A stretch of DNA of 64,000 nt, taken from Candidatus Nitrososphaera gargensis Ga9.2. Lineage in GTDB: Archaea > Thermoproteota > Nitrososphaeria > Nitrososphaerales > Nitrososphaeraceae. The notes beneath the pieces were generated by a model. It ran no database searches and was not told where the DNA came from. It worked only from the letters and a program-made list of their open reading frames with translations. Positions 16,793 through 60,703 of this stretch are shown here, in pieces (position 1 is the stretch's first letter; each line of letters begins with the position of its first letter). A program made the translations under genes and the position numbers. The stretch lies in the NCBI RefSeq assembly GCF_000303155.1, contig NC_018719.1, positions 1 through 64,000 of the forward strand, in the 5' to 3' direction.

Positions 16793-17416
16793 ATGGCAGG
16801 GGGAGACAAGCGCCAGCAGTTCGTGAGCCAGATCACCACAGCGACCGGCGTGGTCTACAACCAGCTCACGCGCCTCAAGATGCTCGACAAGAGGTTTGCC
16901 TCTATGGAGGCGTACTACCTAGAGCAGATAACCTCAAACATCAAGTCAGGCAACAACGCCCGTGCCAAGATCCTCGCCACTGAACTGTCAAATGTGAGGC
17001 GGCTCCGCCGAACTACGCAGCATACCGGCCTTGCGCTTGAGGCGATAGTGATCCGCTTCAGTACGATAAACGAGTTCGCCAAGATCCTCGACACCATCGA
17101 CCCAACCATTGAGATGATAAAGGGAATCCACACGGAGCTGACCCGGGCCATCCCAGCTGCCAGCGAGGCGCTCTCCGAGGTCTCGACTGTGACCACGGAC
17201 GTGCTGCTCAACGCAAACATCAAGGCAGACGCCAGAATCTCGACTCCTGTGGACGCAGATGCTCTTTCGATACTCAACGAGATCGAGGGGGTGCTTGAGG
17301 ACGAGGCAAAGGCCAAGCTCCCAGAGGTGCCAACCAACATCATCCCGGTTCAAAAGCAGGAACAAGAAGAAGAGCAGCAGCCTGCCGAAGAGACGAGGGT
17401 GATGGTTGAAAGCTAA
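16793..17416 (+). CDS. cdvB: CdvB paralogue (ESCRT-III/Snf7-like)
   Basis: ESCRT-III-like subunit; these proteins polymerise on membranes during Cdv-type division and in vesicle remodelling. The 207-aa protein is nearly all helical with the long basic first hairpin (about 10-75) and later acidic helices, ending in a Gln/Glu-rich tail. I do not see the C-terminal winged helix that the main CdvB uses to bind CdvA, so this is probably one of the CdvB1-3-type paralogues. CdvA and CdvC are not in the window. Confidence 0.85.
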   Translation: MAGGDKRQQFVSQITTATGVVYNQLTRLKMLDKRFASMEAYYLEQITSNIKSGNNARAKILATELSNVRRLRRTTQHTGLALEAIVIRFSTINEFAKILDTIDPTIEMIKGIHTELTRAIPAASEALSEVSTVTTDVLLNANIKADARISTPVDADALSILNEIEGVLEDEAKAKLPEVPTNIIPVQKQEQEEEQQPAEETRVMVES

Positions 17417-17531
17417 CTAGCTAGACAATAGTTGACCTTTTGGTCAAGCCCAAGTAGGGCAGTAGATCGTACTGTTAGTTAAAAATATTTTACAAAGTAG
17501 TTTTAATCATTTACCTTGATAACGGGGTGCA

Positions 17532-19613
17532 ATGGAACAGATGAGTTTTGATTCTCAAGCAAAGGATTCCAAGAAAGGCGGGGTCTTGGAGTCTGCGTCA
17601 AAGCGCGTCAGGATGATTTTCTCGGTGATGGCAAGCCCGAACAGGATCGATATACTGCGCATTCTCAATACAAAGGGGCCGCTCACCTATTCTGAACTCA
17701 AGGCGCTGGCCGGCTTCAAGTCAAAGAAAGAGTCGGGCAAGTTTGCCTACCACCTGAGGAAGCTGCTGAGGCAATTGCTGGTTGCCCTCAACAAGGCAGA
17801 GCGCAGGTATACAATAACGAACCTGGGCAAGCTCGTGCTGTCTCTGGCAAGGCAGATCGAGGAGCGCTCGATAATCGAGAGCGGCAAAATGTACGTGAGG
17901 ACCAGCAGGCACACCATTGAGGAGTTCAACTCGCATAAGATAATCCAGTCGCTCGTGAGAGAGGCCAACCTGCCGCTGGAGCAGGCACACAAAATCACTG
18001 AGGAGGTCGAGAACAAGATCTACAAGTTCCAGACTGCCTACCTAACATCTTCTCTAATACGCGAGACAGTCAACTCTGTCCTCATAGAGCACGGCCACGA
18101 GGAGTATCGCAACAAGCTTGCAAGGGTGGGCCTTCCGTCCTCAGACATTGTCGAGATGCTCTCAGCCGAAGGCGCGACGGTGGACAGCGTCATGGCAAAA
18201 ACTGCCGGCTCGGTCTTTTCCGAGTATCTGGTATTCAACACGCTGCCAAAGGACATCGCCGACATGCACCTGGCCGGTGAGATCAACATTTCAAACGCTG
18301 GAGTGTGGGGCCTGCTCCCAGACACGGTCTTTTTCGACCTGTCAGAGCTTGAAGAGGGGCTGGACCTAAAAGGGCGGTTCCTGAACGTGGCCAGAATCCC
18401 GGCGATCAAGAGCCCGGATGATGTAATAGCCGCGCTGCCGGCTCTGGTGTCGCTCCTTTCAAGGGAGGCTTCATCAGAAGTCGTGATTGAAGGCATTGTG
18501 CCAGCGCTGCTAAAGAACCTGAAAGACCCTGAAGACATTGCTTCGCGGTTTGCAAGAGCGCTGGCAGCTTCGTCAGCCGCGCCTTCGTACTCCGGCACTA
18601 TAGCGACAATAGCAGTGCCTGACGGCATTGACGCGCGGCAGCTGAACGCGCTGCTCGATGGCTACAGGAAATACGTCGACGCGACGCCCGCGCCAAGGAT
18701 AGGCCTTGCGATAGCAGCAGGCAAGATAATAATAAAGGACAACCTTGACCATGTGGCCGCAGCTGTGCGCAGCGGCGGCATCATTTCAATAGGCAGTAGT
18801 AGCGGCGGCGCCCGGGCAAGCAATGGCATCCGCAAATCAGGCAAGGGCGCAGCAGCGATGTCGTTCCATTCGCTTTCGATAAACCTGCCGCGGCTTGCAT
18901 ACGAATCAAATAAGGACGAAACTTATTTCAGGGCAAAGCTGGCGCTCATGATAAAGCCGTCGCTTGCAGCAATGTCGATGCGCAAGAAAACCATAGTCGA
19001 CTATGCCAAGAGGGGCCTGCTCCCTTCGCTTGCAAGCGCCACTCAGTCAATGCAGAGGGGCACGTCGACAATAGTGATCAACCTTACTGGAGCCCGCGAA
19101 TCGGTCTACAACATACTGGGCGAGTCTTCTTCGAGTGAGGTGCTCCAGAAGGTGCTCAAGACGGCCACCGAGGTGGCGGCCAGCCAAGGCAAGCAGCTTG
19201 GCGAGGAGGGGGCCGGCATTGCCATGGTCTCGGACGGCTCTGGCGTGAGGTTTGCCACCCTCGACTCTGAGAAGTATGGCAAGGTCTCACTTCTGCAATC
19301 GCAGAACACTACCAGCTATTCCCAAGGAATGACGCTAAATGGCAAGGAAATCCTCTCAGACAAGGGCGCAACACAGGAATGCATAGCCATCGACAAGCTG
19401 CTGAACGGGGGCTTTGCCGCAACCCTGGACGTGACCGACCTGTCGGCAGCCGAGGCCAAGAGCGCGATAGAGGTTGCTGTTGCAGCAGAGCTGCCGTTCC
19501 TGCGCCCCCGCATCAAGCTTGCAGTGTGCACGACGTGCGGCCAGCGCTCAAAGGCTGTTGCAGACAAGTGTGAGCATTGCAAGTCGCCGCACAAGCTGAC
19601 GATGTATTCGTAA
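17532..19613 (+). CDS. wHTH-ATP-cone-NrdD-like fusion, probable nucleotide-sensing regulator
   Basis: A 693-aa three-part protein: an ArsR-like winged helix (about 25-105, with SPNRIDILRILN), an ATP-cone (about 118-205), then a long region like the barrel of anaerobic ribonucleotide reductase NrdD, ending in a zinc ribbon (CTTC near 666 and CEHC near 680). The NrdD glycyl-radical loop is absent, because the protein ends LTMYS soon after the ribbon. The barrel has almost no cysteines, so catalysis looks impossible. It sits directly upstream of nrdJ. I infer a dATP/ATP-sensing transcription factor, analogous in logic to bacterial NrdR. Confidence 0.78.
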   Translation: MEQMSFDSQAKDSKKGGVLESASKRVRMIFSVMASPNRIDILRILNTKGPLTYSELKALAGFKSKKESGKFAYHLRKLLRQLLVALNKAERRYTITNLGKLVLSLARQIEERSIIESGKMYVRTSRHTIEEFNSHKIIQSLVREANLPLEQAHKITEEVENKIYKFQTAYLTSSLIRETVNSVLIEHGHEEYRNKLARVGLPSSDIVEMLSAEGATVDSVMAKTAGSVFSEYLVFNTLPKDIADMHLAGEINISNAGVWGLLPDTVFFDLSELEEGLDLKGRFLNVARIPAIKSPDDVIAALPALVSLLSREASSEVVIEGIVPALLKNLKDPEDIASRFARALAASSAAPSYSGTIATIAVPDGIDARQLNALLDGYRKYVDATPAPRIGLAIAAGKIIIKDNLDHVAAAVRSGGIISIGSSSGGARASNGIRKSGKGAAAMSFHSLSINLPRLAYESNKDETYFRAKLALMIKPSLAAMSMRKKTIVDYAKRGLLPSLASATQSMQRGTSTIVINLTGARESVYNILGESSSSEVLQKVLKTATEVAASQGKQLGEEGAGIAMVSDGSGVRFATLDSEKYGKVSLLQSQNTTSYSQGMTLNGKEILSDKGATQECIAIDKLLNGGFAATLDVTDLSAAEAKSAIEVAVAAELPFLRPRIKLAVCTTCGQRSKAVADKCEHCKSPHKLTMYS

Positions 19614-19866
19614 TCTTGCAGCTGCTGCGCAGCTGCCGCGCCGCATCATTATTTTTTAGAATTATGATGATGCAGGCAAGCTGCCGACGTTTGCAGAGCT
19701 GGTAATTGGCAGAACTTTCTTTTCGTTTTTTACAAAATATTATACTGCTATACTCGGATTTCAGCTCTGAATTAATGACATTCTACTAAGTAAATTTTGT
19801 CTGCTAAATTAGGCATGCAGTTTTATCTAAAAGGATAATAACCAGTGTCTTATGGTATAGTGCGGG

Positions 19867-22602
19867 ATGGCGGGAGTTACTGAATTTAATTCGAATTCAA
19901 ATTCCGGGACGCTGATTGCAAAGATACGGAAACGTGACGGACGCATCGTTAATTTCGAGCAGAGCAAGATTTCAAACGCAATATACAAGGCACTGGTGGC
20001 AACAGGCAAGCCTGATTACCCATTAGCAGAAAGGCTGGCTGCAAAAGTTGTTCAAAAAATGGTGCAGGGCGAAAAATCAGTTATTCCAAGCGTTGAAGAC
20101 GTGCAGGACATGGTCGAATCGATCCTGATAGAGGAGGGGCTGTCGGAAACTGCCAAGGCTTACATACTCTACAGGCATGAGAGGCGCAAGCTGCGAGACG
20201 AAAAGATGAAGATCCTCAACAAGAGAGATCTTGATGAGGTGGACAAGGCGTTTGATATCAACTCGCTGAGAGTGCTGGCGGCACGCTACCTGCTGAGGGA
20301 CAGCAATAACGAAATCATTGAGGGCCCCAAGCAGATGTTCGAGAGGGTCGCCACACTCGTGGCAATTGCAGATGTCCTGCACGATCCGGCAGTCTTTAAC
20401 CTTGCCGGCGGCCACACTCAGAGCATCGAAGAGGCCGAGCGCTACTATGCAAAGCTGGACGACTTTGACAACAAACTGCACATCGGCGACTATTACCTGA
20501 ACAAGTACCACTTTGAAGCAATGATACGCCACTACATCCATTGCGCGCAGCAAGGGCAGATGAAGGTCTCTTTCAAAGAGCTGCTCAGGATGATAGCAGA
20601 GAACAAGATGGCGCAGTACGAAGAGCAGATCAAGACTTATTATAACCTGATGGTTTCAAGGGACTTCCTTCCAAACACGCCGACGCTCATGAACGCCGGC
20701 GCAAGGCTCGGGCAGCTATCCGCATGCTTTGTGCTTGACATGCCAGACGACATGGCCGGCATCATGAAGTCTTCGACAGACGCGGCCATGATATTCAAGT
20801 CAGGCGGCGGAGTCGGCATCAACTACTCCGACCTGCGGCCGGAGGGCGACATTGTCGCTTCAACATCTGGAGTCGCGTCAGGCCCGACGTCGTTTATGCG
20901 CATCATCGACACAATCACTGATGTGGTCAAGCAGGGAGGCAAGCGCAGGGGAGCCAACATGGGCATCCTTGAGGCGTGGCACCCTGATATTGAAAAGTTT
21001 GTCACCGCCAAGACAAAGCCGGGCGTCTTTGAGAACTTTAACGTGAGTGTGGGCATCTGGGAAGATTTCTGGCAGGCGCTTGTGAACAAGGAAGGCAACC
21101 ACAAGTACACGCTGCGCAGCCCGAGATCAAGGGAGCCAGTAAGGCAGATCGATGCACAGCAGCTGATCGATCTTATCGCACTAAGCGCATGGAGGAGCGC
21201 CGAGCCGGGAGTGATATTCTTTGACAACATCAATAAGTACAACCCGCTGATTAACGCAAGGCACGGCCCGCTCCGCGCAACAAACCCATGCGGCGAGCAG
21301 TCGCTCTACCCATACGAATCGTGCAACCTCGGCTCGATAAACTTGGCAAACTTTGTCAAGCGCAAGGCCGACGGCGCGTACGAGTTTGACTGGCAGCGCT
21401 ACGAGCAGGCGATCAGGCTGGCGACGAGATTCCTTGACAACATCATTGACATGAACAAGTATCCTGTCGAAGAGATCAAGGTTGCAACCAAGGAGACAAG
21501 GAGGATCGGCCTTGGCATCATGGGCATCGCCGACCTGCTGTTCTTGCTAAAGATTCCGTACAACTCGAAGGACGGATACGAGTTCATGAACAAGCTTGCA
21601 GAGGCAGTTTCGTACCTGAGCATGGACGAAAGCGTGGCCATCGCAAGGGCTCGCGGTCCGTTCCCGATGTTCAAGGACAGCGACTATGTGAAGGGTCGCA
21701 TTCCAGTAGCGGGCTATTACGAGCTGCCAAAGGAGACGCACACCTACGACTGGGACACGCTCGTTGAAAAGATAAAGAAGTACGGCATCCGCAACTCGTG
21801 GACCTCTACCATTGCGCCGACAGGCACGCTATCCATGATCGCCGACACTGCAAACGGGGTCGAGCCGGTGTTTGCTCTTGTGTATGAAAAGCGCGTGACA
21901 GTGGGCCGGTTCTTTTACACCGACAAGGTGTTTGAGAGCATGCTCAAGGAAAACGGTCTTTACAACGACGAGATACTGACCAAGATTGCGAACAACTATG
22001 GCTCTGTCCGCGGCCTGCCTGAAATTCCAGAGTGGATGCAGCGCATCTTTGTGACTGCGATCGACATTCACTGGACCGATCACGTGATGGCTCAGGCAGT
22101 GTGGCAGAAATGGATCAGCAACGCGATTGCAAAGACGATCAACATGCCCGGCGACGTGACTGCAGAAGACGTCAAGTGTGCTTATTTGCTGTCGCACGAG
22201 CTTGGGTTAAAGGGCGTAACTGTATTCAGAGATGGCTCGCGCCACGAGCAGGTGCTTCACATCACCGGCAAGAACACGGGTGAAAAGGCGTTTGCGGTCA
22301 AGCCAAGCAGGTACATAGCAGACTATGTCAGCACAAACATCAAGGAGCCCTACGTACTAGAGCAGATGCAAAAGATATTCAAGGAATCTGGAGTAGAAGA
22401 AGAAAAGCCGGTGCCAAAGGAGATTCCGCTCCAGGAGATCCCAGCGGCACCTAAAAAGCCAGCACCTCAGCCGGCAGTACCGCAGATGGCAATGATGGAC
22501 GCAGACGAGGATCGTTGCCCGACATGCAACGCCCGGCTGATAATCACCGAAGGGTGCAACGTATGCATCGAGTGCGGCTTTAGCGGCTGCGGATCGGGCT
22601 AA
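19867..22602 (+). CDS. nrdJ: Ribonucleotide reductase class II, adenosylcobalamin-dependent
   Basis: Reduces ribonucleotides to deoxyribonucleotides with a cobalamin radical. The 911-aa protein has an N-terminal ATP-cone (about 18-110) for allosteric control and a catalytic barrel. One redox Cys lies in SACFVLD (near 287) and the active-site motif NPCGEQ near 474. GLKGVTVFRDGSR follows, and a Cys-rich C-terminal ribbon (CPTC, CNVCIECG) probably works as the re-reducing swinging arm. ATG start. A promoter-like A/T tract precedes it (19790-19860), so it may also be transcribed alone. Confidence 0.95.
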   Translation: MAGVTEFNSNSNSGTLIAKIRKRDGRIVNFEQSKISNAIYKALVATGKPDYPLAERLAAKVVQKMVQGEKSVIPSVEDVQDMVESILIEEGLSETAKAYILYRHERRKLRDEKMKILNKRDLDEVDKAFDINSLRVLAARYLLRDSNNEIIEGPKQMFERVATLVAIADVLHDPAVFNLAGGHTQSIEEAERYYAKLDDFDNKLHIGDYYLNKYHFEAMIRHYIHCAQQGQMKVSFKELLRMIAENKMAQYEEQIKTYYNLMVSRDFLPNTPTLMNAGARLGQLSACFVLDMPDDMAGIMKSSTDAAMIFKSGGGVGINYSDLRPEGDIVASTSGVASGPTSFMRIIDTITDVVKQGGKRRGANMGILEAWHPDIEKFVTAKTKPGVFENFNVSVGIWEDFWQALVNKEGNHKYTLRSPRSREPVRQIDAQQLIDLIALSAWRSAEPGVIFFDNINKYNPLINARHGPLRATNPCGEQSLYPYESCNLGSINLANFVKRKADGAYEFDWQRYEQAIRLATRFLDNIIDMNKYPVEEIKVATKETRRIGLGIMGIADLLFLLKIPYNSKDGYEFMNKLAEAVSYLSMDESVAIARARGPFPMFKDSDYVKGRIPVAGYYELPKETHTYDWDTLVEKIKKYGIRNSWTSTIAPTGTLSMIADTANGVEPVFALVYEKRVTVGRFFYTDKVFESMLKENGLYNDEILTKIANNYGSVRGLPEIPEWMQRIFVTAIDIHWTDHVMAQAVWQKWISNAIAKTINMPGDVTAEDVKCAYLLSHELGLKGVTVFRDGSRHEQVLHITGKNTGEKAFAVKPSRYIADYVSTNIKEPYVLEQMQKIFKESGVEEEKPVPKEIPLQEIPAAPKKPAPQPAVPQMAMMDADEDRCPTCNARLIITEGCNVCIECGFSGCGSG

Positions 22603-49586: not shown

Positions 49587-50708
49587 ATGCTTCAAGCCCT
49601 GCCCGTCAAGCTGGAAACAAGCGGCGACGAGAAGGCTCTCCTGCTTGCCACCATGAAAAAGTATAATGAAGCAGCAAATTTTCTTGCTGAACAGGCATTT
49701 CGGTTGAAGATAGCAAACAAAGTAGAGCTACAAAAGAGGTTCTATTATCAACTGCGAGAACAGTTCAACTTATCTGCACAGTTTGCCGTCCGTGTGATAA
49801 GCAAAGTGGTTGAAGCATACAAAAAAGACAAAAGAATCAAACCTGTGTTTAGAGAACTCGGTGCTATCCAGTATGACCAGCGCAACCTTTCATGGAAAGG
49901 ACTGGATAGAGTATCAATGATAACACTGAAAGGTAGAATCAAACTCCGCACAAGAATAGGTGAGTACCAGAAATCAAGAGCAGACAGAATAAGAGGACAG
50001 GCAGACCTGATATACAGAAAAGGTGAGTTCTACCTCATCGCAGTTGTTGATGCTCCAGAACAGTCAGAGTTTGACCCCGTAGGAGCTATCGGCGTTGACC
50101 TTGGAATCGAAAACATTGCCACCGATAGCGACGGTCAGGTATTCCGCGGGGAGACGATAGAGAAGGCAAGGAAGCGATATAATAGTCTGCGAGCTCGGCT
50201 GCAAAAGAAGAGCACACGATCTGCAAAGCGACATTTGAAAAAGATGTCTGGCAGGGAGAAACGCTTCAAGCGTGACATTAACCATGTTATCTCAAAAGCC
50301 ATTGTCTCCAAAGCCAAAGGCACCATCAGAGCGATTGCACTAGAGGATTTGAGTGGAATACGCTCTAGGGCAACGGTTATTGGGCGCAAACAACAAAGAG
50401 ACAGACACAGCAAGTGGTCTTTCAGACAACTACGAGCGTTTGTGGAGTACAAGGCAAAGCGGGATGGTGTTCCTGTCAAGTTCGTTGACCCAAAGAACAC
50501 TTCTCGTGAATGTCCAAAATGCCACAACATTGACGCAAGAAACAGACGTACACGAAACCACTTCAAGTGTACAGAATGCGGATATGAGGCAATGGCTGAT
50601 CATGTTGCTGCTTGCAATATAGCAGCTAGGGCTGCTGTCAACCAGCCCATTGTAGCGCCTCTTTTTTCGGCAGTTACAAGCCCACTTGCTTTAGCAGTGG
50701 GTAGTTGA
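49587..50708 (+). CDS. tnpB: TnpB RNA-guided nuclease, intact
   Basis: 373 aa. The RuvC-like catalytic acids are all present: Asp in IGVDLGIEN, Glu in ALEDLSGIR and Asp in MADHVAACN. The zinc finger has CPKC and CTEC. TnpB cuts DNA guided by an RNA from the element's right end and helps retain IS605-type elements. The stop codon lies inside the right end (AGCAGTGGGTAGTTGACC, 50690-50710). No Y1 transposase is nearby, so it is IS1341-like. Sequence is quite different from the other TnpB copies. Confidence 0.92.
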   Translation: MLQALPVKLETSGDEKALLLATMKKYNEAANFLAEQAFRLKIANKVELQKRFYYQLREQFNLSAQFAVRVISKVVEAYKKDKRIKPVFRELGAIQYDQRNLSWKGLDRVSMITLKGRIKLRTRIGEYQKSRADRIRGQADLIYRKGEFYLIAVVDAPEQSEFDPVGAIGVDLGIENIATDSDGQVFRGETIEKARKRYNSLRARLQKKSTRSAKRHLKKMSGREKRFKRDINHVISKAIVSKAKGTIRAIALEDLSGIRSRATVIGRKQQRDRHSKWSFRQLRAFVEYKAKRDGVPVKFVDPKNTSRECPKCHNIDARNRRTRNHFKCTECGYEAMADHVAACNIAARAAVNQPIVAPLFSAVTSPLALAVGS

Positions 50709-52034: not shown

Positions 52035-55000
52035 ATGCACGATAGTACGAATAGCTTTAGCAAGAAGTCAGTAGGTTCAATAGCAATAGCTGCCTTGCTT
52101 ATTTTCGGCATCTATAGTATATTGCCTCTGACATCAGGTGCATATGCTCAAGGAACGGTCACTATCACGACAAGTGCTGATGCCCACAACAACAGATTCT
52201 TTGGGCCAGCGCTGTTGGAAGTGATGTTCACGAGCTCACAACATGCAGCTGATAACGCACAAGGAACAGCACAAGTAACAGTAACCGCATTTGGTACACA
52301 ACGCCAGTTATCTCTTAATGAGACTTCACAAACCAGCGGTATCTTCCTAATGTATGTCAAAGTAGACAACTTGGGGAATCCAGCAAACACATTAGGCAGT
52401 GCTGAAGATCCACAGACACCAGCAACACCATTTTCAAGTACTAATACACGCCTATACATAGGTACTGGCGGCAGTGGAGACAACTCTGCGTATCCAAACA
52501 CCAGCGGTAGTGCACCAAACCAGACAGTTGAAAGGACGATCAGTCTTAACTCTGTCTCTGGCCTAGAAGGCGGTCAAATTACATTCTCGTTCGGTGGCGT
52601 GCAAAAGACAGTCACATGGGACGACTCGACAGCATCTGTATCACTGGACAGGACAAACTATGGACCGGGTGCTACAGCATACGTGGTAGTTGAAGACCAA
52701 GACATGAACCTTGACCCAACAGCAGTGAACACTTTTTCAGATACTGCAAGTGCTCCTGCCAATCAAAACCTGACCAACGGTGTTGATAAGGGATCATCAC
52801 TCACCTACACTGAAACAGGTGCAAACACTGGCAAGTTTGAAATAACCTATACAATAGGTATCCTGACTACTGGCACATCCCAAGGCCGCTCACTGACAGT
52901 AAATGACTTCAAGAACTTCACAGCTTCGGGAACCACAATAGCGTTGGGTTCAGGCACAGGAGGCTCAGGTTCGCCAATAGGATCAAGCTCTGCGTCCTAT
53001 ACAGTTCAAAGAGTCTCTGGTGGCCTTGGAGCAGTAAGTAGTGTAACCTATGCAGGCGAGCTTCCATTAACTGTAAGTGACTCTGACAGGAACTTGAATT
53101 CAAAGGCACAAGAAAGTCTCAACACTAAGCTACAAGTCAACGAGCCTAGCCAGACAAACAAGAGGGAATTCAACCTAAGAGAACAATCGCAAAGCAGCAA
53201 CACATTCGTTCCAGCTTATGGTCAGGATAGAATCATTCTGACATGGAAGCAGAACACAACTGAAGCGCAAGGCATCTTGAAATTGCTACCAGGCCAAGAA
53301 GCAACCATCAGATACGAGGACGATGTTCCATCAACCGGCGGACCCGCGAACACATCGTCAATTACAATAAAGCCAACCAATACAGCACCTACTCTGTCAG
53401 CCGACAAGACTACCGTGGGCAGGTCATCAGTCATAGGGCTGACAATGAACGATCCAGAGCTCAACGATGACAGCCAAATCGTAGAATCATACACAGTCAC
53501 ATTTACTGGCACTACTGCAGCAACTAATGTACCCGCATTCCCAAGCACCATAAGTCCGTTCTCCCTGAAAATAGACAAGAACGGAGCGGCGATGACAATA
53601 TCTCCTAACTTCTCTGTGACATTCACAGAAACAGGTCCAAACACAGGCGTCTTTACAGCAGAAGTAGATCTGTCTGACCTTGCAGCTAGTCCAGCGCTTG
53701 CAGATGGTGACACACTCAAGATTGAAGTAAACGACATTCTTGAGCCCGGAGAATCAGAGACTGCAGATGTAAGCCTGACGGTCGGACTCGAAAAGCCAAC
53801 AGTCAAAGTGGACAGATCCACAGTACCAGTTCCAAGATTGGCAACTGCTGACGATTTCGTAACCCACGGAATAGCATCTAACTCAACAGGTTCAGCCAGA
53901 GACAACATCGCTAACACAGGTCCTGTCGACATCGTAATAACGATCACAGACCCTAACAGAAACAATAGCACAATCAACGAAGAAACACTCGGCAGTGGTA
54001 CTGCATTCACAACCGTCACGGGAGGAAATGTAGCAAGACAGGTATTCTCATATGATGGCGGAAGACTGGTTCTAACATTGGATGCCGCACCTGGTCAGCT
54101 ATTCGCCAATACAGCTGGAATCACCATGACTGATGCACTCAAGGAAACCGGCTTTAACACTGGCATCTTCCAAGGTACAATTAGAGTAGACCCATCAGTC
54201 GCAGGCAATGACGATCCACTATGGATTGGTGCAAAGCTAAAGATTGAATACAAGGGTCTATCTGTTGCCAGTTCAACCGATGATGCAAACGCAGTGACTG
54301 TGACATTCACGGCAAGGCAGGCTGTCCTGAGTACAGACACATCAACGGTTGTCAACGGTGGCGAAGTGACATTCACAGTCACTGACCAAGATTCCAACCG
54401 CGATCCAGATACAGCTGAAAAAGTCAAAATCAGAGTAGCATGGACTGGTGCTAACGGCAATGCACAAAATAGGTGGCTTGAACTTGAAGAAACAGGCAAG
54501 GACACTGGTGTCTTCACAGAAACAATTGCAGTAGGCGATGACACGATAGACGGCATTACATTCGATGTTGAATCAGACTCAGAGGTAGATGTCTTCTACT
54601 ACGATGCTACGCCAAGCGTATCTGCATCTACTAATTGGCCAGCACTGGGAAGCACAAACGGCAGGCACGAGAAGACACTACAAGTCGGAGCTGCATCAGG
54701 CTCACTTGACCTCGGCATAACAGGAACATCAGTCGGACCATCATCAGAGATAGATGTCACTATATTTGACACAGACGTGAACACCAACCCGAACACCAAG
54801 CAGATAATAGGACAAGGTACAGGAAGCTTGATCACAGTTGCAACAGACGCAGGCATTGAAGTCCAGCTAGATGCCGAAGAGACAACAGGCAGCAGTGCAA
54901 GGTTCGTAGGCACAATCAAGCTGCAAGCTGACGCAACACCTACTCAGGCAGAAGTCGCAGGCGATGACTCGACAGAAGTAACGATCCCTGTTTCGCCGGG

Positions 55001-55805
55001 CGATGTCGTCTCTGTAAGATATGAAGACCAGAATGACGAAAACGGAAGAAGGACGACCATCTCGAAGCAATTCACAGTGGTCAGCGTCGATCCAGAGATA
55101 ACTACAGACAAGAATGTCTATGCAGCAGGCGACCAGATGAAGATAACACTGGCCGACCTTGACAGAGACAGAGACCCAGATAGCAACGACATCGTCAACG
55201 TCAAGGCAACATCGACAAGCGACCTAGTGGGACTCTCGAGCGTACAGCTGATTGAGACAGGACCCAACACAGGCGTATTCGAAGGAACGCTGACTCTGTC
55301 AGCCCAGTTCTCGTCGGGTTCGCTGACTGTGAAGAATGGCGATGTAATCACCATCAAGTACACAGACGACTTCCCGGCTGACTACGAGGAAAGAGTAGAT
55401 GCAGGTGGTACAACCAGCAAGGACTTCGTTAAGACAGTACCAGTAGGCACCTCCGGTACGACAAAGACTACAACACCAAGCAAACCAGAGTTGAAAGATG
55501 CTCAGGGCAGACCAGTGACTCAAGTACTGGCAGGTCAACAGGTAGTGCTGTCAACCACAGTCAAGAATAACGAAGCAGCATCGACTCCATATGCAGCAAT
55601 AGTCGAAGTCAGAGACTCTAAGGGCATAACTGTGTTCCTCAACTGGCAGACAGGCACCCTGCAAGCTGACGGCACAACCGGCATTGGCTTGTCATGGACA
55701 CCTGAAACACCAGGCACATACACAGCAAGAGTCTTTGTACTGAGCGGACTCACCAACCCACAGATCCTGTCAGAAACGATCACATCGACCATCACCGTGA
55801 GCTAA
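52035..55805 (+). CDS. Giant repetitive surface protein, probable S-layer (SlaA-like)
   Basis: 1256 aa with a signal peptide (about 12-38, GAYAQ) and no C-terminal anchor. At least six or seven Ig-like repeats carry two landmarks each. One is an acidic loop such as VEDQDMNLDP, VTDQDSNRDPD, LADLDRDRDPD, suited to calcium. The other is ETG.NTG.F (ETGANTGKF, ETGPNTGVF, ETGFNTGIF, ETGKDTGVF, ETGPNTGVF). Thr/Ser/Asn-rich with many sequons and a single Cys-free body. Size, composition and promoter fit the main S-layer protein of an ammonia-oxidising archaeon. Confidence 0.85.
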   Translation: MHDSTNSFSKKSVGSIAIAALLIFGIYSILPLTSGAYAQGTVTITTSADAHNNRFFGPALLEVMFTSSQHAADNAQGTAQVTVTAFGTQRQLSLNETSQTSGIFLMYVKVDNLGNPANTLGSAEDPQTPATPFSSTNTRLYIGTGGSGDNSAYPNTSGSAPNQTVERTISLNSVSGLEGGQITFSFGGVQKTVTWDDSTASVSLDRTNYGPGATAYVVVEDQDMNLDPTAVNTFSDTASAPANQNLTNGVDKGSSLTYTETGANTGKFEITYTIGILTTGTSQGRSLTVNDFKNFTASGTTIALGSGTGGSGSPIGSSSASYTVQRVSGGLGAVSSVTYAGELPLTVSDSDRNLNSKAQESLNTKLQVNEPSQTNKREFNLREQSQSSNTFVPAYGQDRIILTWKQNTTEAQGILKLLPGQEATIRYEDDVPSTGGPANTSSITIKPTNTAPTLSADKTTVGRSSVIGLTMNDPELNDDSQIVESYTVTFTGTTAATNVPAFPSTISPFSLKIDKNGAAMTISPNFSVTFTETGPNTGVFTAEVDLSDLAASPALADGDTLKIEVNDILEPGESETADVSLTVGLEKPTVKVDRSTVPVPRLATADDFVTHGIASNSTGSARDNIANTGPVDIVITITDPNRNNSTINEETLGSGTAFTTVTGGNVARQVFSYDGGRLVLTLDAAPGQLFANTAGITMTDALKETGFNTGIFQGTIRVDPSVAGNDDPLWIGAKLKIEYKGLSVASSTDDANAVTVTFTARQAVLSTDTSTVVNGGEVTFTVTDQDSNRDPDTAEKVKIRVAWTGANGNAQNRWLELEETGKDTGVFTETIAVGDDTIDGITFDVESDSEVDVFYYDATPSVSASTNWPALGSTNGRHEKTLQVGAASGSLDLGITGTSVGPSSEIDVTIFDTDVNTNPNTKQIIGQGTGSLITVATDAGIEVQLDAEETTGSSARFVGTIKLQADATPTQAEVAGDDSTEVTIPVSPGDVVSVRYEDQNDENGRRTTISKQFTVVSVDPEITTDKNVYAAGDQMKITLADLDRDRDPDSNDIVNVKATSTSDLVGLSSVQLIETGPNTGVFEGTLTLSAQFSSGSLTVKNGDVITIKYTDDFPADYEERVDAGGTTSKDFVKTVPVGTSGTTKTTTPSKPELKDAQGRPVTQVLAGQQVVLSTTVKNNEAASTPYAAIVEVRDSKGITVFLNWQTGTLQADGTTGIGLSWTPETPGTYTARVFVLSGLTNPQILSETITSTITVS

Positions 55806-59416: not shown

Positions 59417-60703
59417 AGAAAACCCACACTCTTTAGAGGTGGGATGAATTTGGTTCCCGTCAATGAATCTTTTCCTCTACCCCCCACCCCACCCTCCCGC
59501 CAAAGTGCCTGAGACGTTAAATAGTAGTAGTAATAGTGATGTGTACAAAAAAATGCTCAACTACAAGTTCCGCCTATATCCAACGAAAGAGCAGGAGCTT
59601 CTGTTAGAGCAAACTCTGGATGGCTGTAGATGGGTGTACAACTACTTTCTCTCACTACCATCGCCAATGTCAGAGTACGACATGAACTATGCCTTGACTG
59701 AATTAAAAGAGCAACACCCATGGCTTCGCAAATACTACCACTCTAAAATGTTGCAGATGGTGGCAAAACAGGTTGCAGCAGCTAGAAAGGTAGCAAAGGG
59801 CCGCAAGCTTTCATACAGAAAGGACAGCGATTTCAACTCATTTACATATAACCAGTCTGGCTTTCGGCTCGAGAATAACAACAGGCTGTCACTTTCCAAG
59901 ATAGGCAGGATAAGGATTGTACTACATCGTCAACCAGTCAACGTCAAGCAGGTGACAATATCTCGTACAAAGACTGGCAATAAGTGGTACGCTATTGTAG
60001 CCTGCGATGTACTGCGCAGGTCATTTTCAACGATAATCAGGTACGCAAAGCCTGTTGGTATAGATGTTGGCATTGCCAAGTTCTGCCATCACTCTGACAA
60101 CCATGTGGAAGACAACCCGCAGTTTCTCACAAAGATGCTCAGACCACTGAGAAGAGCTCATAGAAGAGTGTCAAGAAGGCAGATAGGCAGCAATAATAGA
60201 AAGAAAGCAAAGCGCATGCTTGCCAGACTATATGAAAGGATAAACAACAAGCGTAAGGATTTCCTGCATAAAAAATCGGCGTACTATGCCAGCCGCTATG
60301 ACCTGATATTTCTTGAGAGATTGCGGGTCATGAACATGACCAAGAACCACAGGCTTGCACGCAAAATCCTGGACGCAAGCTGGTCTGCTTTTAAAAATAT
60401 GCTGCAGTACAAGGCCAACCGCGTTGTAGAGGTAGAGCCATCATACACATCGATTAACTGCTCAAGGTGCGGCCATCCAGTACCAAAGTCACTTGCAGTA
60501 CGTATTCATGTTTGTACAAAGTGTGGTGCAATACTTGACAGGGACTATAATTCTGCCATCAATATCCTCAAGCGAGGACTGGAGTCGTTAGTGCTACTAC
60601 TACTACCGGTGGAACGCCGGGAAGTTACGCCTGTGGAGATCGTACTACAACAGCGGTCGCTGAAGCAGGAAGAAGCCCACGTCTTAAGACGTGGGTAGTT
60701 CAC
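59398..60703 (+). mobile_element. Intact TnpB element J with both ends
   Basis: Left end 59398-59462: outer stem ACGGGAACCA (59406-59415) with TGGTTCCCGT (59451-59460), and an inner hairpin CCCAC...GTGGG with a CTTTAG tip. Right end: perfect 20-base palindrome CCCACGTCTTAAGACGTGGG at 60676-60695 followed by TAGTTCACC. No TnpA. The bases just before the left end read CTTTATCCTGAT. The right-end palindrome is identical to that of the decayed copy at 49459. Confidence 0.78.
59553..60698 (+). CDS. tnpB: TnpB RNA-guided nuclease, intact
   Basis: 381 aa from ATG at 59553 (30 codons of open frame upstream come from the left end). N-terminal HTH/wedge starts LNYKFRLYPTKEQ. Catalytic acids: Asp in GIDVGIAKF, Glu in IFLERLRVM and Asp in LDRDYNSAIN. 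Zinc finger CSRCG...CTKCG. The C-terminal tail (PVERREVTPVEI, EEAHVLRRG) is read through the right end, and the stop TAG lies just outside the right-end palindrome. All catalytic parts are present, so it may be active. Confidence 0.9.
   Translation: MLNYKFRLYPTKEQELLLEQTLDGCRWVYNYFLSLPSPMSEYDMNYALTELKEQHPWLRKYYHSKMLQMVAKQVAAARKVAKGRKLSYRKDSDFNSFTYNQSGFRLENNNRLSLSKIGRIRIVLHRQPVNVKQVTISRTKTGNKWYAIVACDVLRRSFSTIIRYAKPVGIDVGIAKFCHHSDNHVEDNPQFLTKMLRPLRRAHRRVSRRQIGSNNRKKAKRMLARLYERINNKRKDFLHKKSAYYASRYDLIFLERLRVMNMTKNHRLARKILDASWSAFKNMLQYKANRVVEVEPSYTSINCSRCGHPVPKSLAVRIHVCTKCGAILDRDYNSAINILKRGLESLVLLLLPVERREVTPVEIVLQQRSLKQEEAHVLRRG

Follow-up and report, generated by a model that had tools for sequence, protein, structure and literature searches.

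In bacteria, the genes for ribonucleotide reductase (RNR) are repressed by NrdR, a protein of about 150 amino acids in which an N-terminal Zn-ribbon provides for DNA binding and an ATP-cone serves as the nucleotide sensor; in NrdR structures, residues R51, E56 and K62 contact the nucleotide (PMC9110341). An ATP-cone is also part of NrdD, the class III anaerobic RNR, together with a barrel fold and a C-terminal zinc ribbon. In Bacillus subtilis PurR, a winged helix-turn-helix (wHTH) is fused to a dead phosphoribosyltransferase: that a transcription factor can use a dead enzyme as its sensor is a principle already known.

The DNA analysed here (‘the window’) is a stretch of 64,000 nucleotides at the start of a genome consisting of a single contig of 2,833,868 bp. 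The gene that concerns us, and its component parts, are as follows:

17532–19613, + strand: gene of the wHTH / ATP-cone / dead NrdD protein, 693 amino acids (ORF, Pfam, AlphaFold2, Foldseek, alignment)
17616–17846, + strand: ArsR/SmtB-type winged helix, aa 29–105 (Pfam, profile search, modelled fold)
17883–18146, + strand: ATP-cone, aa 118–205 (Pfam, alignment)
18147–19511, + strand: NrdD-like body without catalytic residues, aa 206–660 (Pfam, Foldseek, alignment)
19527–19580, + strand: zinc ribbon CxxC-x10-CxxC, aa 666–683 (alignment, Cys positions)

Elsewhere in the window, we see two OrfB/TnpB-type transposon proteins with a Cas12f1-like TNB domain (49587–50708 and 59463–60698) and an ORF of 1256 amino acids (52035–55805) with no Pfam match at E 1e-5.

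Working along the 693-residue chain from its N-terminus, Pfam identifies an HTH domain (DUF7347/HTH_20; aa 29–103), an ATP-cone (PF03477; aa 120–192, E 2.9e-11) and, in the C-terminal half, NRDD (PF13597; aa 435–690, E 1.3e-17, 64.1 bits against a cut-off of 26.2); the NCBIfam equivalog model for NrdD, TIGR02487, scores only 47.7 bits, its cut-off being 326. An AlphaFold2 model built from 36 aligned sequences (pLDDT 83.9, pTM 0.76) has class III NrdDs for all 35 of its best Foldseek matches in the PDB, drawn from S. thermophilus, T. maritima, P. copri and phage T4 (normalised by target length, TM is 0.66 for the T4 enzyme; E 5.9e-17 for that of S. thermophilus), so that the likeness to NrdD extends into the body's degenerate first half. 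Modelled alone (107 residues, pLDDT 92.8), the winged helix resembles HlyU, CadC, CzrA and NolR, all ArsR/SmtB regulators, an assignment with which a profile search agrees; its recognition helix, KKESGKFAYHLRKL, is near-invariant across the class, and the metalloregulator profile NF033788 falls below its cut-off (21.9 versus 55 bits). The succession of winged helix, ATP-cone, NrdD body and zinc ribbon that the initial annotation had read from this ORF is thus borne out by Pfam, model and Foldseek alike, with the NRDD profile, the NrdD fold and the ArsR-type wHTH together supporting an NrdD-derived protein with a predicted DNA-binding head. In L066, L098, L158 and other Nitrosopumilaceae, an acidic, D/E-rich N-terminal extension (LDLDVDADLDDD...) precedes the winged helix, provided that the upstream start is genuine.

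Two sites in the body bear on catalysis:

18324–18326, + strand: codon of T265, at the site of the first active-site Cys (YC motif) in true NrdDs (alignment)
18825–18833, + strand: codons of G432-I433-R434, at the site of the finger-loop C-C-R (radical Cys) in true NrdDs (alignment)

Our alignment comprises eight true NrdDs, taken from basal class members and from other lineages of the phylum, with 35 relatives of the 693-residue protein from the class and 19 from the wider phylum. All eight true NrdDs, and none of the 54 relatives, have the first active-site Cys. At the finger-loop, the first position is Gly in 35 of 35 class members and the second is never Cys; a single Cys is found in just two relatives, both from the wider phylum (L212 and L218). 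The radical Gly-Tyr is seen in seven of the eight true NrdDs, the eighth ORF being cut short, and an intact R-x-x-G-Y in none of the 54. The 693-residue protein itself has only five Cys—C617 and the ribbon residues C666, C669, C680 and C683—and no glycyl-radical loop (R-[VI]-x-G-Y), the chain stopping at residue 693, ten residues past the last Cys. Where the true NrdD L099 has SRIVGYLRP, relics of the loop follow the ribbon in three wider-phylum members (SRTASGYLP in L211, SRVSAKHLP in L212, SRLFDRYLP in L213); members from the class stop right after the ribbon. The structural motifs GDIHI, NLPR and the CxxC pairs are retained in the alignment. Three class members (L085, L090 and L098; 565–692 aa) have no C-terminal zinc ribbon.

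No relative, then, carries the complete catalytic set, and judged from the alignment the 693-residue protein is catalytically dead, as first proposed: the active-site Cys pair and the glycyl-radical loop are both missing, and neither the Gly radical motif nor the active-site Cys, named at the outset as findings that would speak against this, is present. The NRDD match, the NrdD fold and the single finger-loop Cys in two outgroup members would also fit an anaerobic reductase that still works, through an unusual radical site, or one recently broken; we give this reading almost no credence, and regard it as already contradicted by the sequences. Besides the first Cys missing from 54 of 54 relatives, the finger-loop Cys missing from 52 and the want of any intact glycyl-radical motif, NrdG2 (TIGR02495) is below cut-off in all eight ammonia-oxidising genomes tested, that of the window included, and over cut-off in three genomes with a true NrdD; the window genome has NrdJ as its reductase; and conservation of the gene across a class rules out recent decay.

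That reductase is the next gene:

19867–22602, + strand: nrdJ, class II (B12) ribonucleotide reductase with its own ATP-cone, the only RNR of the genome (Pfam, NCBIfam, genome search)

A search of the window genome with PF02867 returns one class I/II reductase, this NrdJ, and a search with PF13597 returns no NrdD besides the 693-residue protein. In a survey of 119 loci, NrdJ lies directly downstream on the same strand in 91 and is convergent in three (family f13), with 12 ending too early, at a contig end, and 13 having no NrdJ neighbour. Linkage to an RNR is seen in ten families of the order; in families f11, f14 and f15, and in a few genera, the gene is present and the RNR is not adjacent. 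The linked NrdJs of f4, f7, f8 and f9 are only 30–38% identical to that of the window, have different NCBIfam models as their best matches and in several cases lack a cone. In the wider phylum, the gene precedes a true NrdD in L212, L214, L218 (with an NrdG match) and L226, and an NrdJ in L211. An nrdJ just downstream with its own ATP-cone (Pfam) had been claimed in the initial annotation, which named a lack of conserved linkage to it as a finding that would refute the idea; the nrdJ is as described, and the linkage, followed across class and phylum, is conserved and even survives replacement of the reductase. One linked NrdJ (L073:5262–8711) carries an intein-like insert.

A second gene, pyrB (aspartate carbamoyltransferase), recurs across the phylum as a convergent neighbour of this cluster (e.g. 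L213:9445–10389). It faces the gene with a true NrdD between them in L212 and L218, with an NrdJ between them in L065, L069, L071, L072, L073, L078 and L079, and with no intervening RNR in L207, L208, L210, L213, L224 and L225; TIGR00670 is well above cut-off in all four neighbours tested. L221 and L222 have only weak carbamoyltransferase matches, in L221 to an ornithine carbamoyltransferase, and these were excluded from the synteny argument. Near the gene in the window pyrB is absent; directly upstream here, and in Nitrososphaeraceae, lies a gene for a CdvB/Snf7-like ESCRT-type protein (16793–17416). The simplest history for these arrangements would be a single ancestral cluster, from which the reductase was exchanged or lost whilst the putative regulator stayed.

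In a maximum-likelihood tree of cone and body, all 54 relatives fall in one clade (support 100/99), making a single origin of the family most likely; its sister comprises the archaeal NrdDs of L214, L226 and L218, the first with the same V-R-T-S cone type, in a tree whose root position depends on five other NrdDs. Most likely, the family arose once from an L214-type NrdD, gaining a winged helix and losing catalysis. Within the class, 186 of 200 sampled genomes match (167 of 170 among the good genomes); of 300 genomes sampled from the phylum, 223 match at E <= 1e-8, some of these matches being true NrdDs since the profile used (A1) includes the body. Conservation over class and phylum excludes chance. 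A phage or plasmid origin was rejected, there being no phage match and one plasmid match, to a true NrdD. The open-access papers searched hold no description of a wHTH/cone/dead-NrdD protein.

Conservation within the protein is uneven: in the class, the winged helix has a mean column identity of 0.79, the cone 0.72 and the NrdD body 0.43–0.45. Invariant cone residues are R123, E130, F132 and T172, and K136 is mostly retained; by motif order, R123, E130 and K136 match the NrdR contacts R51, E56 and K62, whilst Val replaces the Lys that opens the canonical K-R motif (NrdR K50). The conserved winged helix and cone contacts together support a protein that binds DNA and reads a nucleotide through its cone. 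The initial annotation had placed a second nucleotide site in the former allosteric site, a suggestion that finds little backing here: the former specificity region is degenerate in the class, with the P-x-K-H and GAQ..APF segments of true NrdDs lost, so that such a site is conceivable rather than indicated.

The same figures bear on an alternative in which the protein acts as a pseudo-subunit, binding NrdJ (or NrdD) and modulating its activity, with a winged helix that would anchor the reductase on DNA or make contacts to proteins. Retention of a whole RNR body, adjacency to an RNR in most lineages and the existence of linked NrdJs without a cone of their own would all fit. Set against these, conservation is lowest in the body and highest in the winged helix, and the protein stays whilst its would-be partner is now a class III enzyme, now one of several class II subfamilies, which are expected to differ in their interfaces; we consider this alternative decidedly improbable.

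If the protein does bind DNA, three regions are candidates:

17432–17447, no strand assigned: palindrome TTGACCTTTTGGTCAA between the cdvB-like gene and the regulator gene, candidate operator or terminator
17488–17509, + strand: TTTTACAAAGTAGTTTTAATCA, 22-bp block in the gene's own promoter region, conserved throughout Nitrososphaeraceae
19614–19866, + strand: upstream region of nrdJ, candidate target (motif comparison with the regulator promoter)

The 22-bp block sits 23–44 nt before the start codon and has no other copy in the genome within three mismatches; Nitrosopumilaceae have a different conserved block at the same place. The palindrome (TTGACC-N4-GGTCAA) is exact just once in the window and could be a terminator. 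Comparison of the regulator and nrdJ promoters finds no common operator, only shared AT-rich words, and upstream of nrdJ in Nitrosopumilus (e.g. L148, L152 and L157) lies a separate conserved block of about 100 bp. This latter block contains the near-palindrome TATGAANTTCATA and GGTGTnAAAAAAATTGAC. The conserved upstream blocks may be part core promoter and part operator. Each promoter has a conserved element that hardly occurs outside it, and the wider dNTP regulon foreseen in the initial annotation was consequently not found by way of such elements.

The missing common operator leads to another alternative: a DNA-binding regulator with the same sensor and its main targets elsewhere, in pyrimidine synthesis, replication or cell division, with a common signal and ancestry, and not direct control of nrdJ, behind the RNR linkage. 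The recurrence of pyrB as convergent neighbour even without an adjacent RNR, the several lineages that hold the gene away from RNR and the cdvB-like gene upstream in Nitrososphaeraceae may likewise be read this way. We judge it unlikely, given that RNR linkage is retained through replacement by other RNR subfamilies, and that pyrB is convergent in the great majority of loci, from different families, and is hence not an operon partner.

Our preferred reading, which we hold to be fairly likely, is that a dead class III RNR has become a transcription factor that senses (d)NTPs and acts on the reductase gene beside it. The ATP-cone would read ATP versus dATP (or another dNTP signal) and the NrdD body would form a dimer or oligomer scaffold, a nucleotide-driven change in oligomer shape ‘switching’ the binding of the winged helix to the nrdJ promoter and probably also to the regulator's own; repression of nrdJ at high dATP, as by NrdR in bacteria, seems the most likely outcome. 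DNA binding, ligand and direction of control we infer. The ArsR-type wHTH as the most conserved part of the protein in the class, a linkage that persists through several NrdJ subfamilies and the true NrdDs of the outgroups, and a family-specific conserved element in the gene's own promoter argue for this transcription factor. Against it stand the lack of an operator shared with nrdJ, which has its separate upstream block, the gene's position away from RNR in f11, f14, f15 and a few genera, the Val in place of the first cone Lys, and an outgroup family (f18) with both the dead-NrdD protein and NrdR; moreover, the window NrdJ has its own cone, so that allosteric control may exist without any regulator. 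More tentatively, and with rather less confidence than in the local role, we suggest an archaeal family, spread over the phylum, of whole RNRs turned transcription factors that read (d)NTPs in the cone and possibly in the former substrate/specificity pocket, and that have governed the reductase locus since before the in-place exchange of class III for several class II enzymes.

Should this be so, the locus would be one where an enzyme was replaced whilst its regulator stayed, and would plainly illustrate how an enzyme turns into its own regulator: living outgroups still show the radical loop in decay. It would also be a direct candidate for the control of dNTP supply in ammonia oxidisers, a core gene in genomes from which NrdR is absent where tested. 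The NrdR profile (TIGR00244) has no match to the 693-residue protein at E<=1 and none in the window genome; it exceeds its cut-off in 13 of 200 phylum genomes, all of them from f18, and in none of the ammonia-oxidising genomes searched. In G213, G259, G312, G337 and other phylum genomes, ORFs of about 90–115 amino acids match only the cone half of NrdR, and are possibly stand-alone ATP-cone proteins.

By profile and DNA-binding domain on the one hand, and by Cys, Gly loop and NrdG2 on the other, the protein belongs neither to NrdR nor to the catalytic NrdDs. With NrdR it shares an ATP-cone sensor, a separate DNA-binding domain and genetic association with RNR genes, and on anatomy, linkage and the absence of NrdR the ‘archaeal NrdR analogue’ of the initial annotation appears the best reading; unlike NrdR, it pairs an ArsR-type wHTH with a whole dead NrdD body, and its zinc ribbon, derived from NrdD, lies at the C-terminus. 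With NrdD it has cone, barrel fold and C-terminal ribbon in common, but not the Cys pair or the glycyl-radical loop, whilst it has an N-terminal wHTH and a genome without NrdG2. Its first ~105 residues are like the ArsR/SmtB regulators in fold and recognition helix, but below the metalloregulator cut-off, the likely sensor being the nucleotide cone rather than a metal site in the wHTH. Finally, PurR of B. subtilis is non-homologous and differs in enzyme, ligand and pathway; what the two would have in common is a transcription factor whose sensor body is a re-used, inactive enzyme of nucleotide metabolism.
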